From contig NZ_JAFJMJ010000003.1 of NCBI RefSeq assembly GCF_017309385.1, positions 620,001 to 684,000 of the forward strand: a stretch of 64,000 nt of DNA, in the 5' to 3' direction. A program made the translations under genes and the position numbers. Below, piece after piece: positions 1,286-7,858 of the stretch. Source of the DNA: Amycolatopsis sp. 195334CR. GTDB lineage: Bacteria; Actinomycetota; Actinomycetes; Mycobacteriales; Pseudonocardiaceae. The number at the start of each line of letters is the position of its first letter. Position 1 is the first letter of the stretch. The notes beneath the pieces were generated by a model. It made no database searches. It saw only the letters and a program-made list of their open reading frames with translations, and was not told where the DNA came from.

Positions 1286-1443
1286 GGTCCTGGGCGGGCG
1301 CGAGAGAACGCCGCGGATCATGAGTGCTCAGCCGGACCTTCAGCGCGCTGTGCGGGGCGGGCACGATCACGAATCGGCGTACGAACGCACGCAGCAGGCT
1401 AACGACGCCCGTCGCCACGATGGCGGTGGTTTTAGCATTCGGC

Positions 1444-1830
1444 ATGGTCGACAACGGCACGCGGCTGATGCTCCGGCGAGGCCTGCTGCTCGCCGGGTTC
1501 GTGGTGACGGGCTGGGCGGCGACGCGGGTGGCGCTGTTGCTGAGCGGGAACGAAGCGGTCGTGGCCGAGGACGACCGGCACGGATATGTGGCGATCTTCT
1601 CGCTGGTGCTGATGCCGGTGCTGGCCGCCGCCCTGGTGGCGCTGGTGATCGCCGCCGGCGAAGTGTGGCGGCACGGCCGCTGGCCGATCGGCCCCGGGGT
1701 GGCGCTGGCGCTGTCGTCGCCGCTGGCCAGTCCGGTCGCGCTCGTCGCGTTCGCCCTGGGGGTGGTGATCATCGTGGTGGCGCTGGTGGATCGGCGTCAG
1801 AGGGCCTTGGCCAGGAAGTACTTGCGGTAA
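1444..1830 (+). CDS. small hydrophobic membrane protein, unknown
   Basis: 128 residues from ATG 1444 with three predicted membrane helices (about residues 10-30, 47-68, 82-108) and a basic tail. An in-frame GTG at 1324 would add 40 unconvincing residues. I prefer 1444 because TAGCAT, a TANNNT -10 box, ends 5 nt before it and no Shine-Dalgarno is present, which fits a leaderless transcript. The 3' end overlaps the convergent GNAT gene by 34 nt. Function unknown; moderately confident it is real because hydrophobic pattern and codon bias agree. Confidence 0.5.
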   Translation: MVDNGTRLMLRRGLLLAGFVVTGWAATRVALLLSGNEAVVAEDDRHGYVAIFSLVLMPVLAAALVALVIAAGEVWRHGRWPIGPGVALALSSPLASPVALVAFALGVVIIVVALVDRRQRALARKYLR

Positions 1831-2219
1831 CCGCCGGGAAAATCGGGCAGTTCGCCGAACACGCGGTACCCGTGTGCTTCGTAGAACGGCCTGGCCTGGA
1901 AGCTGTAGGTGTCCAGCCAGGCGGACCGGCAGCCCCGCCTTCGGGCCTCGTCCTCGGCGGCCCGCAGCAAGGAGGCGCCGAGGCCCTGGCCGCGGGTCGA
2001 TTCGTGAACCCAGAGCTGGGCGATGAACAACCACCCGTAGTTCGTGTGGCCCGCGATCCCGCCGAGCAGCTCGCCGTTCTCGCCACGGATGAAGGAGGCC
2101 AGCTTCTCGCGGTTCTCCGGGGGCAACGAGGAGGGGCGGCTGGCGACCAGCGAGGCAACCAGCTCGTCGAGGTCGGCCGCGGCCGGATCGGCGGTGACCG
2201 CCGGCGGTGTCCCGTTCAC
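1797..2219 (-). CDS. GNAT-family N-acetyltransferase
   Basis: 140-residue single-domain acetyltransferase of the GCN5 superfamily, which transfers acetyl from acetyl-CoA to an amine. The acetyl-CoA loop is seen as ESTRGQGLGASLL (about residues 78-90), and the C-terminal half carries the usual FYEAHGYRVFGE signature of the family. GTG at 2219 (VNGTPPAV...) is the best start; longer reading upstream lacks family resemblance. Substrate cannot be told. It is transcribed away from the Rhs gene and converges on the membrane gene at 1444. Confidence 0.82.
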   Translation of the reverse strand: MNGTPPAVTADPAAADLDELVASLVASRPSSLPPENREKLASFIRGENGELLGGIAGHTNYGWLFIAQLWVHESTRGQGLGASLLRAAEDEARRRGCRSAWLDTYSFQARPFYEAHGYRVFGELPDFPGGYRKYFLAKAL

Positions 2220-2345
2220 CCGACGATCCTCGCAAACGCCTGGCCGGGGCGCCCCGGGGGAAGAACGGGCAGCCTCGGACGGCCACTCGGGCAGCGCCGG
2301 TGCCGGGGCGTTGTCGTGCTCGGGGGCGTTGCCTTGACTACCTCC

Positions 2346-5300
2346 ATGGCCAATCCGCTGGTAGCCGAGGTGCAGGATTCGACCACGGCGATTTCCGGTG
2401 TCCCGATCCTGGAGTCGATCAACGAGACCAGCAAGGCGATCGAGAGTGGTGACTGGGCGGCCGGGGTGCTGGGCGCGGCCGGGACCGCGCTCGACGCCCT
2501 GGGCATGGCGATGGATCCCTTCGGGTCGATCCTCGCCGCCGGGGTGGGGTGGCTGATCGAGCACTGTGGACCGCTCTCCGATGCCCTCGACGCGCTGACC
2601 GGGAACCCGGATGAGATCAAGGCGCACTCGGAGACGTGGAAGAACGTCGGCACCGAGTTGTCCTCGATCAGCGCGGACCTGGCCAAGATGATCGAGGAGG
2701 ACACCGCGTCCTGGACCGGCCCGGCGGGGGATGCGTATCGGACGCGCGGGGCGGATATCGCCACGTTGATCACCGGGGCGCAGTCCGCGGCCGAGGGGGC
2801 CTCCAGCGGTATCGGGACCGCGGGTGAGGTGGTCGGGGCGGTGCGGTCGCTGGTGCGCGACATCATCGCCGAGCTGGTCGGGCACATGATCAGCTGGGCG
2901 TTGCAGGTGCTGTTCACCCTGGGCATCGGGCTGGCGTGGGTGGTGCCGCAGGTCGTCTCGGCGGTGGCCAAGACGGCGATGAAGATCGCCGACATCACCA
3001 AGAAGCTGGTCCAGGCGCTGAGCAAGCTCTCCCCGCTGCTGAAGAAGCTCGGGGATTCCTTCGGGGATGCGGCCAAGGCGCTGAAGAACATCAAGAGCGG
3101 TAACCAGCCCAAGCCGGAAACCACCCGCGGTGGCGGTGGTGACACCAGCCCCAGCAGCTCCGGACCCACCCCCAACCCGCCACCCGGGCAAAGCAACAAC
3201 GGCGGCGGTGGGGGTGGCGACACCACCAGCAGCAGCGCCAAACCGGACGGCTCCTCGGGCACCCCGCCACCACCGGCACCCAAGCCCGACCCCACACCCA
3301 ACCCGACCCCCACACCGACACCCAGCCCCACCCCGACCCCGACCCCGACGCCGCGGTCACCGGAACCCAGTACAGCGAACGGCAAAGGCGGCTCGCGCAA
3401 CGACTCCGTCGAGGCCGAAAACCGGAACTGCAAATCCGACCCGGTGGACATCGCCACCGGTGAGGTGGTGATGACCCAGCTCGACCTGACCATCGCGGGT
3501 CAGCCTGACCTGTTGCTGGAGCGCACGCACGTCTCGTCCTATCGCGAGGGCCGCTGGTTCGGGCCCTCGTGGGCGTCCACTTTGGACCAGCGGGTCGAGG
3601 TCGGCGGGGCGGGAATCACCTACTTCTCGGCCGACGGGATGAAGCTGGTGTACCCGCGCCCCGCCGGGGGCGAGGTGGTGCTCCCGGCCGAGGGACCGCG
3701 CTGGCCGCTGTCCCGCACCGCCGACGGGTACCGCCTGGGCGACCGCACCGCACGCCGGACGCTGGTGTTCACCACCGCTCCCGGGCAGAGCGACGGAGTG
3801 ATGCCGCTGACCGCGATCGAATACGAGGCCGCGCCGCGGGTCACCGTCGAATACGCCGCGAACGGGGCGCCGAGCACGATCCGCCGCGCCGACGGCCACG
3901 AAGTCCGCCTTGCCTCGTTGCGTGGGCGGATCGTCGAGATGGAGGCCGTGAACACGGCCGACGGCACCGTGGTGCCGGTTGTCCGGTTCGGCTACAACGA
4001 GGCTGGGCACCTCACGCAGGTGATCAACTCGTCCGGCCGGCCGATGACCTTCGACTACGACCCCGCCGGGCGGCTCACCGGCTGGCAGGACCGGACCGGC
4101 ACCTGGTATCGCTACGTCTACGACCACAACGGCCGCTGCGTGCAGACGGTCGGGGCCGATGGTTTCTACGACGGCCGGTTCACCTACGACACCGAGGCCC
4201 GCGTCACCACGTACACCGACGCGCTCGGGCACCGCAGCGAATATCGGCTCAACAACGCGGGCCAGCTGGTCGAGGAAACCGATCCGCTCGGCCACACCCG
4301 GAAGTACAGCTGGGACCGCTACGACCGCATGCTCTCCCGCACGGACGAGCTGGGCCGGATCACCCGGTACACCTACACCGACGACGGTGAATTGGCCGAG
4401 ATCATCCGCCCGGACGGTTCCGCCCTGCGGGTTTCGGCCGCGGCGGACGGGGCCGTGTCGCTCGAAGCCCGTGACGCGCGGCGCGAATACCCGGCGGACG
4501 ACGCACCCGATCTGTTCACGACTTCGGTGGGCGCCGCCGTTCCGTTCCGCGCGGACGGCCGGTCCAGTCCGCTCGACGAAGCGGCCGTGCACCCCGCCGT
4601 CGGGGGTGCTCCGGGTGAACGCGACCTGTTCGGCCGTCCACGAGTGGCGCGCACCGGTTCCGGCGCCGCCGTCCGTCACGGATGGACGGTGGAGGGCAAC
4701 CGCACCGTGCGCACCGGGCCGCTCGGGCGTCACGAAACCTGGCAGTACGACGCCGAGGGCAACGCCATCGAACACCGCGGCGCGGCCGGGCAGGTGACCC
4801 GGCGCACCTACGGGCCGTTCGGCCTGCCCACCGCCGAGATCGATCCCGCCGGTGGGCGCACCACCTACGCCTACGACGGCGAACTGCGGCTGATCGCGGT
4901 GACCAATCCGGCCGGGCGAACTTGGCGCTATACCTACGATCCAGCGGGCCGCCTGATCGCCGAGGAGGACTTCGACGGCCGCCGCCTCAGTTACACCTAC
5001 GACGCCGCCGGGCAACTGCTGAGCATGACGAACGCGCTCGGCGAGGTCACCGAGTACCGCTACGACGTGCTCGGCAACGTCGTCGAACGGCGGACGGCCG
5101 CCGGGACCACCACCTACTCCTACGACTCCCTCGGCCAGCTGGAGCGCGCGACCAACCAGGATTCCGTGCTGGACATCGTCCGCGACGAGTACGGGCGGGT
5201 GACCGCCGAGGCGGTCAACGGGCTCGGGATCAGCTGGGACTACGACGAGAACGCCGTGCACCGCCGCACGCCGAGCGGGATCGACAGCACCTGGGTGTTC

Positions 5301-7004
5301 GACGGTGCGGGACGGCCCGAGTTGCTCACGACCTCCGGGCGTGAAGTGCGGTTCGAGTACGACGCGGCCGGCCGGGAGATCGGGCGGTACGTCGACGGAT
5401 CGGCTGTACTGCGCCAGTCGTTCGACGAGCAGGACCAGCTGACCGAACAGGTGCTCACGGCCGGCGACCGGGTACTCAAGCAGCGCCGGTACCACTACCG
5501 CGTCGACGGGGAACTCATCGCCATCGACGACTCCACGACCGGCGCGCAGCGGTTCCGGCTCGACACGGCGGGCCGGGTCACCGAGGTGTCCGCGCAGCAC
5601 GGGACCGAGCGGTACGCCTATGACGCGTGCGGGAACCTCACCAGCGCCACCACGCCGTGGTCCGAATACGACCACGACGGCCAGGGCCGGGTGGTCTCCC
5701 GCTACACCGGCGGGGCGGTCTGGCGGTTCTCCTGGGATCCGCTGGACCGGATGACCGACCTGACCGCGCCGGACGGCACCCGGTGGACCTACCTCTACGA
5801 CCCGCTGGGCAGGCGGTTCGCCAAGCAGCGGTGGACCGGTGGTGCCGACGGCGTGCCGGTGATGACCGACGAGACCCGGTTCGTCTGGAGCGGTCCGGAA
5901 CTCGTCGAGCAGCTGACCCAGCGCCACGACGGGTCGAAGTCGGTACTCACCTGGGAACGGCACCCGCTCGACGGGCGCGCGGTTGCCCAGTCCGAATACG
6001 CGTGGCCCCAGCATGAATCGCGGTTCCACTCGATCGTCACGAACCCCGTCGGCACACCGACCGAACTGCTCGGCGACAACGGCGACATCGTGTGGGAAGC
6101 ACGCACGAGCATCTGGGGCGTGACGTGGCCGTCGAGGTCGGTGGCCACGACGCCGCTGCGGTTCCCCGGCCAGTACCACGACGACGAAAGCGGCCTGCAC
6201 TACAACGTCTACCGCTACTACGACCCGACGGCGGCGCGGTACCTCAGCCAGGACCCGCTCGGCCTGCGCCCGGCGCCGAACCCGGTGGCGTACGTGGCGA
6301 GCCCGCTGCTCGCCGCCGATCCGCTCGGCCTGGCCGGGACCGGCAAGTGCGGTGGGTCGAACGGCGCGCCGAACCGCGACGGCACCGGCAACGACGCCGG
6401 GCACATCGACCGGTCGCAGCCGAAGCCGGACGGGAACCCGGGCAACGGCAAGGGCCTGGACCTGCGCAACCTCAGCGAGGCCGACTACTACAAGCTGAGC
6501 CCGCAGCTCAAGGAACTGCTGAAGACCGATCCGAACGGCGCCTGGTTCTGGTCCGGCGGCCGCCACGACGCGGACGGCAAGTGGAACTCCGTGATGGACA
6601 CGGCGAACGACACGGCCAAGCGCAACGACGGCACCACCCTGGAAGCCAAGCTGGACAGCAACAAGATCACCATGCCGAACTGGAAGGACGAAGGCCCGTT
6701 CAACAAGCCCATCTGGGACGACGCCTCGGCCGCCTTCGCCCGCAACGCCAAGGGTGACGTGCACGCCATCCTGGTGCAGCCGGGCAAGGACGGACCGATC
6801 CCGGAGAACCCCACCGACGGGATCGCACGGCGCACCGACAACGTGTTCGACATGACGGAGTTCCCGATCCTGCGGCACAACCCGAACGTGGACCGGATCT
6901 TCACCCACGACGTGGTGTTCGACCAGAACACCAAGACGTTCGTGCCGCTCGGCACGAACGACCTGCTGTGGGAGAACCCGAACCGGCCCAAGCCGAAGCT
7001 GTAG
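2346..7004 (+). CDS. Rhs/YD-repeat polymorphic toxin with CD38-like (ADP-ribosyl cyclase) C-terminus
   Basis: 1552 residues from ATG 2346 (MANPLVAEVQ). Order: WXG100-like helical part with SWTGPAGDAYR (about 85-180); hydrophobic stretch (about 181-215) that may aid membrane passage; Pro/Thr/Gly-rich linker (about 255-345); DUF6531 start at CKSDPVDIATGE (362); YD repeats and the Rhs core ending ARYLSQDPLGL (about 1290-1310); variable toxin tip (about 1395-1530). The tip matches CD38/Aplysia cyclase block by block: FWSG (1401-1404), TTLEAKL (TLE at 1431-1433), PIWDDASAAFARNAKGDVHAI (1455 on) like CD38 [20 protein letters not shown], and FDMTEF with Glu1505 at the catalytic Glu. So it probably consumes NAD(P)+ in a neighbouring cell. 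No immunity gene follows: the next gene is convergent 4 nt away. No strong ribosome site precedes the start. Confidence 0.85.
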   Translation: MANPLVAEVQDSTTAISGVPILESINETSKAIESGDWAAGVLGAAGTALDALGMAMDPFGSILAAGVGWLIEHCGPLSDALDALTGNPDEIKAHSETWKNVGTELSSISADLAKMIEEDTASWTGPAGDAYRTRGADIATLITGAQSAAEGASSGIGTAGEVVGAVRSLVRDIIAELVGHMISWALQVLFTLGIGLAWVVPQVVSAVAKTAMKIADITKKLVQALSKLSPLLKKLGDSFGDAAKALKNIKSGNQPKPETTRGGGGDTSPSSSGPTPNPPPGQSNNGGGGGGDTTSSSAKPDGSSGTPPPPAPKPDPTPNPTPTPTPSPTPTPTPTPRSPEPSTANGKGGSRNDSVEAENRNCKSDPVDIATGEVVMTQLDLTIAGQPDLLLERTHVSSYREGRWFGPSWASTLDQRVEVGGAGITYFSADGMKLVYPRPAGGEVVLPAEGPRWPLSRTADGYRLGDRTARRTLVFTTAPGQSDGVMPLTAIEYEAAPRVTVEYAANGAPSTIRRADGHEVRLASLRGRIVEMEAVNTADGTVVPVVRFGYNEAGHLTQVINSSGRPMTFDYDPAGRLTGWQDRTGTWYRYVYDHNGRCVQTVGADGFYDGRFTYDTEARVTTYTDALGHRSEYRLNNAGQLVEETDPLGHTRKYSWDRYDRMLSRTDELGRITRYTYTDDGELAEIIRPDGSALRVSAAADGAVSLEARDARREYPADDAPDLFTTSVGAAVPFRADGRSSPLDEAAVHPAVGGAPGERDLFGRPRVARTGSGAAVRHGWTVEGNRTVRTGPLGRHETWQYDAEGNAIEHRGAAGQVTRRTYGPFGLPTAEIDPAGGRTTYAYDGELRLIAVTNPAGRTWRYTYDPAGRLIAEEDFDGRRLSYTYDAAGQLLSMTNALGEVTEYRYDVLGNVVERRTAAGTTTYSYDSLGQLERATNQDSVLDIVRDEYGRVTAEAVNGLGISWDYDENAVHRRTPSGIDSTWVFDGAGRPELLTTSGREVRFEYDAAGREIGRYVDGSAVLRQSFDEQDQLTEQVLTAGDRVLKQRRYHYRVDGELIAIDDSTTGAQRFRLDTAGRVTEVSAQHGTERYAYDACGNLTSATTPWSEYDHDGQGRVVSRYTGGAVWRFSWDPLDRMTDLTAPDGTRWTYLYDPLGRRFAKQRWTGGADGVPVMTDETRFVWSGPELVEQLTQRHDGSKSVLTWERHPLDGRAVAQSEYAWPQHESRFHSIVTNPVGTPTELLGDNGDIVWEARTSIWGVTWPSRSVATTPLRFPGQYHDDESGLHYNVYRYYDPTAARYLSQDPLGLRPAPNPVAYVASPLLAADPLGLAGTGKCGGSNGAPNRDGTGNDAGHIDRSQPKPDGNPGNGKGLDLRNLSEADYYKLSPQLKELLKTDPNGAWFWSGGRHDADGKWNSVMDTANDTAKRNDGTTLEAKLDSNKITMPNWKDEGPFNKPIWDDASAAFARNAKGDVHAILVQPGKDGPIPENPTDGIARRTDNVFDMTEFPILRHNPNVDRIFTHDVVFDQNTKTFVPLGTNDLLWENPNRPKPKL
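3290..3360 (+). repeat. Pro/Thr-coding low-complexity repeat inside the Rhs linker
   Basis: Tandem CCCGACCCCGACA-like units encode alternating Pro-Thr residues in the linker between the N-terminal export part and the Rhs shell. A slippage-prone tract; length variation would keep frame only in multiples of three. Confidence 0.7.
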
Positions 7005-7008
7005 GGGG

Positions 7009-7512
7009 TCAGAAGGTGTAGCGGATCTGGCGGTAGGGCGCCTTGCCGAAGGCCAGCACCTTGGCGGGCGTCACGGCGTAGACCGGGGCGCGGTGGTCGT
7101 TGTTGCCGGGATCGCTGAACTGACCGTCGACCACCTCGAACGGCCAGTCGATCTTGTCCTGCCACATCTTGGCGAGGCGGTGCAGCGTCTCCTCGTCGCC
7201 GATCCGGGCCGCGGTGCCCTCGACAACCACGTCGAGGCCGGAGCGGTAGGAGTTGGTCCCGGTGGTGAGCACGCAGCGGGAGTTGGTTTCGAGGTTGCGT
7301 GCCTTCTGCTCGTGCGCGCCGGTGCAGAAGTGCAGTTTGCCGTCGAGCCACATCGCGGGCAGGGGCGCCACGTGGGGGCGGCCGTCCTTGCGCACCGTGG
7401 ACAGCCAGAACATCTCCGACTCGCGCAGCACCGCCTCGACCTCGGCCCACGGCATGGCGACACTGCCCGGCTCGCTGAATTCGGTGACGTGCTGGCTCTT
7501 CGGCTTGGTCAT
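7009..7512 (-). CDS. pyridoxamine 5'-phosphate oxidase-family flavin/deazaflavin protein
   Basis: 167 residues with the split-barrel flavin-binding fold: AMPWAEVEAVLRES then FWLSTVRKDGRPHVAPLPAMWLDG in strands 1-3, and a TGTNSYRSGLDVVVEG strand. Such actinobacterial proteins use FMN or F420 to reduce small substrates or bind heme/biliverdin; the cofactor is not decided by sequence alone. ATG 7512 has GGAGCC upstream. It converges with the Rhs gene with only 4 nt between stops, so no common terminator is visible. Confidence 0.82.
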   Translation of the reverse strand: MTKPKSQHVTEFSEPGSVAMPWAEVEAVLRESEMFWLSTVRKDGRPHVAPLPAMWLDGKLHFCTGAHEQKARNLETNSRCVLTTGTNSYRSGLDVVVEGTAARIGDEETLHRLAKMWQDKIDWPFEVVDGQFSDPGNNDHRAPVYAVTPAKVLAFGKAPYRQIRYTF

Positions 7513-7858
7513 CGTGGCTCCTGGTGCTCGGCTGACGCTCTCACCGAGTATCGACCAGGCTCCCGCGCGAAACTCATCGCTCCTCCGAGCCGGGCTCCAG
7601 TCGGACTGCCTACGCTCGGCTTCGCCCGGGACACGCCGTCCGGGGCCGCCGGCTCGGTGCCGGAACCTCCCCACGTGGACCCAACGGGTTCCCCACCGAG
7701 CCGGCACGGGCCCCTGGGCTGGGCACCGTGGCGGCCCGTTCGGAGAACGCTGCCATCAGGCGGCCGCAGTGGGCAGCCAAATTTTCGCTCGCACCAGGCT
7801 GGACCGCGCGACAACCGGGGTGGGGCGTGGCACCCGGAGTTGGGTGCCAGTCAGGGGG
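7513..7858. other. intergenic, 346 nt
   Basis: No convincing gene on either strand. The only structures I see are a hairpin GGCACCC-GGAGTT-GGGTGCC at 7829-7848 just past the glycerate kinase stop, and an imperfect GC-rich dyad around 7713-7780. The part next to 7512 must hold the promoter of the PPOX gene. Confidence 0.5.
7829..7848 (-). terminator. candidate terminator of the glyoxylate operon
   Basis: Perfect 7-bp stem with a 6-nt loop about 10 nt past the last stop codon (7859) of the seven-gene minus-strand operon. There is no U-run, as is common in high-GC actinomycetes. Confidence 0.45.

Follow-up and report, generated by a model that had tools for sequence, protein, structure and literature searches.

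A 64,000-nucleotide stretch of the 9.9 Mb genome of Amycolatopsis sp. 195334CR (hereafter the window) contains a gene for a WXG-Rhs protein whose C-terminal tip belongs to the bacterial ARC (ADP-ribosyl cyclase) enzymes, and its sequence and modelled structure indicate that this tip is very probably an NAD(P)+ glycohydrolase, which would destroy NAD+. The reading that we consider somewhat probable is that a CD38-fold NAD(P)+ glycohydrolase is carried on this WXG-Rhs protein, exported, kept sealed and then cleaved free, that it has no neighbouring immunity gene, and that its target is not kin. The parts of this reading with direct support are the homology, the predicted fold, the conserved catalytic set, the lack of a neighbouring immunity gene, and the constraint relative to the closest copy. 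The gene and its relevant parts are as follows (window coordinates):

2346..7004, + strand: WXG-Rhs gene with ARC tip, an open frame of 1552 aa from ATG 2346 (alternative start TTG 2334)
2601..2954, + strand: WXG100_2-like N-terminal region, presumed export module for a type VII secretion system (T7SS) (PF25547, E 5e-05, 23.8 bits, below the cut-off of 27)
6252..6332, + strand: end of the Rhs core with two DPLGL motifs (6252-6266 and 6318-6332, from motif positions), presumed self-cleavage junction before the tip
6459..7001, + strand: modelled part of the ARC (CD38-fold) tip, residues 1372-1552 (sequence comparison and predicted fold)
6549..6551, + strand: W1402 of FWSG, counterpart of PANA_2924 W273 (this and the next three by profile alignment)
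6642..6644, + strand: E1433 of TTLEAKL, counterpart of Tac1 E516 (CD38 Glu146) and PANA_2924 E299
6714..6716, + strand: W1457 of IWDDAS, counterpart of Tac1 W540 and PANA_2924 W323
6858..6860, + strand: E1505 of FDMTEF, counterpart of the essential Tac1 E573 and of PANA_2924 E356

The original prediction, made from the sequence alone, had likened four motifs of the tip to those of CD38 and Aplysia cyclase. All four occur in frame and in the order named (FWSG, 6546-6557; TTLEAKL, 6633-6653; PIWDDASAAFARNAKGDVHAI, 6708-6770; FDMTEF, 6846-6863), and the Glu of FDMTEF is indeed residue 1505 when counted from ATG 2346. Compared with two bacterial ARC toxins of solved structure, the tip alone gave E values of 1.3e-15 and 2.8e-15, far beyond chance, and a profile of 12 tips gave 1.5e-24 and 2.1e-21; the domain itself belongs to an already known kind. 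By sequence the likeness to the animal enzymes is weak, as the tip reached only 12.5 and 12.9 bits against the Pfam family Rib_hydrolayse (PF02267), whose curated cut-off is 25; with an E limit of 1, 11 of the 12 tips matched this family, the best of them at 6.7e-05, and the tip profile matched Aplysia cyclase at E 0.006 and CD38 chains at E 0.037 at best. By fold, the proposed match stands: a structure prediction of residues 1372-1552 yielded a two-lobed CD38-like model in which the resemblance to the animal enzymes is clear. Among the matches listed, the nearest relative of the tip is from Amycolatopsis albispora (94% over the tip). Two metagenomic proteins of 329 and 306 aa (P0005 and P0006) have no Rhs shell but contain an ARC tip that is about 40% identical.

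The cleft residues W1402, E1433, W1457, and E1505 (two Trp and two Glu) are identical in 20/20 rows of the alignment, and the full catalytic set is present in 36 of 38 ARC loci, the exceptions being a 205-aa frame (L027) and a 173-aa fragment (L159). The chain numbering of the Tac1 and PANA_2924 counterparts was taken off the printed profile alignment, with consistent spacings; a single-sequence alignment misplaced the last Glu, which the profile alignment placed correctly. In Tac1, the E573A substitution abolished activity and E516A led to release of cyclic ADP-ribose (cADPR) (PMC12356396). As E1433 is present in the tip, hydrolysis is the expected reaction: E1505 would be catalytic, W1402 and W1457 would hold the substrate, and E1433 would drive the reaction to linear ADP-ribose. 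The use of NAD+ that had been proposed thus appears likely from the ARC homology, the active-site residues, and the predicted fold, whereas cADPR as the product is less likely, because E1433 aligns with Tac1 Glu516 and the cADPR-releasing enzyme Nac1 has Ala there.

The carrier is clearly an Rhs protein of the polymorphic-toxin type, with matches to RHS_repeat (234.8 bits, cut-off 22), Rhs_assc_core (71.9 bits, cut-off 32.5), and DUF6531 (67.5 bits), all of which precede the ARC tip at the C-terminus. The domain order is a WXG100_2-like N-terminus, a proline-rich linker, DUF6531, RHS repeats, the Rhs core end, and finally the tip, which spans about 220 aa. ESX machinery is also encoded in the genome (three EccB genes above the cut-off). 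The protein would most likely leave the cell via an ESX-type type VII system, and the Rhs shell would hold the tip until the chain is cut at the DPLGL junction, which we presume to be the Rhs self-cleavage site; the freed tip would then hydrolyse NAD(P)+ wherever it is delivered.

No immunity gene adjoining the tip was found among the gene calls on both sides of the Rhs gene. The two neighbouring genes are:

1797..2219, - strand: divergent GNAT acetyltransferase gene, left neighbour (Acetyltransf_1, E 2.2e-17; gene call of 140 aa)
7009..7512, - strand: convergent pyridoxamine-phosphate-oxidase-family gene, right neighbour (PNPOx_N, E 3.7e-18; gene call of 167 aa)

Since only 4 bp separate the stop codons of the Rhs and oxidase genes, there is no room for an immunity gene after the tip, and the lack of such a gene weakens the earlier proposal that the protein kills rivals. 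ARC tips were detected in 36/80 genomes of the genus (E up to 0.001, the genome of the window and three partial or divergent frames included), and we examined their loci for a partner, defined as a same-strand gene of 60-260 aa that is the first gene after the tip and lies within 150 bp, using a purpose-written simple codon-usage script as gene finder. The ARC count leaves out L027 (which lacks the full catalytic set), L159, and L028/L043 (a single locus with a 250-aa frame). Among the loci counted, some, e.g., L035 and L038, have frames cut short by a contig end or break. A candidate partner was found in 1/35 ARC loci, compared with 12/42 loci in which the same N-terminal carrier group bears other tips (two paralogues from the genome of the window and 40 hand-picked loci, one per genome, among the matches listed) and 9/10 loci of a sister Rhs group with about 42% N-terminal identity. 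The Fisher values for the ARC rate are 0.0044 against other tips and 1.1e-07 against the sister group, shared ancestry being ignored; the sister figure rests on ten loci, three of them from the genome of the window, because 13/23 loci without a detectable Rhs core were dropped. Within this genome, 0/4 Rhs genes of the window's carrier group have a partner vs 3/3 of the sister group: the sister-group genes L061, L062, and L063, which have other tips, are each followed by a small same-strand gene, that of L063 encoding Imm15 (E 1.6e-09) and the other two falling below every Pfam cut-off. The first downstream genes of the 35 ARC loci belong to 26 families and 21/35 lie on the opposite strand. A hidden upstream immunity gene was also considered and rejected, as upstream genes were called in 18/35 ARC loci and fall into 15 families, with no shared partner. 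A PADLOC search gave no match.

Outside the genus, a class-wide search found ARC in 4/394 genomes at E up to 1e-6, too few loci for a wider control. In Saccharopolyspora (L068), Kibdelosporangium (L081), and Prauserella (L083), the open reading frame nearest the tip in a mechanically made list is convergent. In a genome of the same order (L162, G403:C1:1703280-1703672, - strand), the ARC domain is followed by about 200 in-frame residues of unknown fold, and 57 bp past the stop there begins a frame of 278 aa on the same strand.

Comparison with a relative (G004) shows that the gene is absent from its syntenic site without any other gene being affected:

2237..7004, + strand: segment absent from G004, comprising the Rhs gene and about 110 bp upstream (alignment)

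Because the G004 counterparts of window positions 1357-2236 and 7005-7708 sit 30 bp apart, what was either gained or lost is the Rhs gene plus its upstream region alone. No direct or inverted repeats of at least 8 bases common to both ends of the segment were found in the stretches compared. Further along, between the G004 counterparts of window 7708 and 7884 (L169), about 5.5 kb that is absent from the window separates the oxidase and glycerate kinase genes. The genome of the window encodes a second ARC-tipped WXG-Rhs protein (locus L016, G000:C1:404000-416000; gene G000:C1:408971-413518; ARC match C1:408935-409495, - strand), whose tip is divergent but has the same four catalytic residues. 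The N-termini of the two proteins are 99% identical, and window 2346-3250 (the first ~300 codons) is 95.7-98.3% identical to L016 at the DNA level, whereas in the blocks from residue 385 onward identity is 50-73% with L016 and 80-91% with A. albispora. This better match of the N-terminal DNA to L016 and of the rest to A. albispora suggests that the export module underwent gene conversion between the two paralogues. Relative to A. albispora, dN/dS is 0.043/0.317 for the tip, 0.032/0.333 (about 0.10) from residue 1395 onward, and 0.099/0.425 for the whole gene; relative to G107, the respective values are 0.236/0.463, 0.191/0.506, and 0.156/0.479. The tip is the most constrained part of the gene in the close comparison (A. 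albispora) but not in the more distant one (G107).

The Tox-ARC family was defined by Zhang et al. in 2012 in RHS, LXG, and WXG contexts, Actinobacteria included, with Imm74 or Imm63 as partners (PMC3482391), and NAD(P)+ hydrolysis was proven and structures were solved by Colautti et al. in 2025 (PMC12356396) and Martinkus et al. in 2025 (PMC12605009), the latter also giving examples from Gordonia, Nonomuraea, and Streptomyces. The suggestion that this actinobacterial WXG-Rhs form may be untested appears to hold for the form, as neither 2025 paper mentions Amycolatopsis in its main text, but not for the class, whose proven members include a T7SS one and whose RHS, WXG/EsxA, and actinobacterial members are already catalogued (PMC12605009, PMC3482391). 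A literature search of abstracts and parts of main texts returned no description of an ARC-tipped WXG-Rhs family lacking immunity. Tac1 from the T7SSb of Streptococcus parasanguinis (PDB 9OUF), of proven activity, has an LXG rather than an Rhs carrier and an immunity protein, Tci1 of the Imm74 family (PMC12356396). The ARC toxin PANA_2924 of Pantoea ananatis (PDB 9RO8), active in bacteria and yeast, is a PAAR toxin on a type VI secretion system carrier, unlike the Rhs protein of the window, and its immunity gene PANA_2923 lies directly downstream (PMC12605009). Human CD38 and Aplysia ADP-ribosyl cyclase, which define PF02267, are larger animal enzymes. The TNT domain of Mycobacterium tuberculosis CpnT has a different fold from ARC and has an immunity factor. 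Its likeness to the window protein, as proposed here, is that an ESX substrate ends in an NAD+ glycohydrolase domain (PMC8092274). SaEAS, the exported alarmone synthetase of Streptomyces albidoflavus, shares the logic of a cytoplasm-toxic enzyme that is exported and lacks an immunity gene, but it is another enzyme and uses Sec export, and in Amycolatopsis azurea the T7SS-linked AaEAS probably does come with an immunity gene (PMC12691689).

Several observations weigh against the reading of a sealed, exported hydrolase that needs no partner. The WXG-type N-terminus gives weak matches (WXG100_2, 23.8 bits vs 27; WXG100, 20 vs 27.3), and relative to G107 the tip is less constrained than the whole gene. 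Because a small partner gene is likewise missing from 30/42 other-tip loci of this carrier group, the missing partner may be a trait of the carrier rather than of ARC; the related loci in the survey are not independent; one ARC locus, L033, does have a 106-aa candidate (from -4 to +317, counted from the Rhs stop), and in L031 and L156 genes of 51 and 48 aa, below the size limit, were called on the same strand. In addition, an immunity gene may lie elsewhere in the genome. The protein would then be a conventional antibacterial NADase toxin, perhaps sharing its immunity gene with the second ARC-tipped Rhs protein, an explanation that gains from the pairing of known ARC toxins with immunity proteins and from the cross-protection reported for non-cognate partners (PMC12605009). 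Searches of the genome with PF02267, Imm74, and Imm63 gave no match, although control genomes gave none either, so that absence is not demonstrated. With the Imm74 and Imm63 results, the partner counts of 0/4 vs 3/3 within the genome, and the lack of a second gene in the unit missing from G004, we consider such immunity in trans unlikely.

It is more improbable still that the tip is a nontoxic enzyme which makes cADPR extracellularly or as a signal, like Nac1 of Actinophytocola oryzae. Nac1 is likewise an ARC-fold protein from an actinobacterial host without an adjoining immunity gene, which Colautti et al. treat as a mark of Nac enzymes, but it is a nontoxic, cADPR-releasing enzyme with a Sec signal peptide, its hydrolase Glu is replaced by Ala, and Nac enzymes stand outside known conflict systems (PMC12356396). 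In the window family the position that decides hydrolysis is Glu rather than Ala in 36/38 loci, and the tip sits on an Rhs protein. We give very little weight to a worn-out toxin that has lost its partner, with a tip that is inactive or retained only as a piece of the Rhs shell. A toxin whose partner is lost would be expected to become inactivated, and the genus does contain the remnant L159 and the incomplete frame L027; against this, the catalytic set is intact in 35/35 surveyed loci, the window frame is full length, and dN/dS in the ARC part is about 0.10 relative to A. albispora. Under the favoured reading of a sealed and exported hydrolase, since no immunity gene adjoins the tip, what probably spares the producer is the sealing and export of the tip, and a distant bacterium or a eukaryotic neighbour, rather than kin, would probably be the main target.

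A toxin carrier, the hydrolase Glu, and no neighbouring immunity gene form a combination that fits neither class of the 2025 studies: both describe toxic ARC enzymes with partners, and one of them regards the lack of an immunity gene as the sign of a nontoxic, cADPR-releasing class. The window family breaks this split. We tentatively propose, as a possibility still short of an even chance, a third ARC class of active NAD(P)+ hydrolases on T7SS-type Rhs proteins, which are gained or lost as single genes without partners, persist in Amycolatopsis, and would have a role other than competition among kin, with eukaryotic neighbours, distant bacteria, or extracellular NAD as targets and nothing but sealing and export to protect the producer. 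Should the tip match Tac1 in toxicity, the survival of the producer would become a direct question, and the likely target would shift away from kin.
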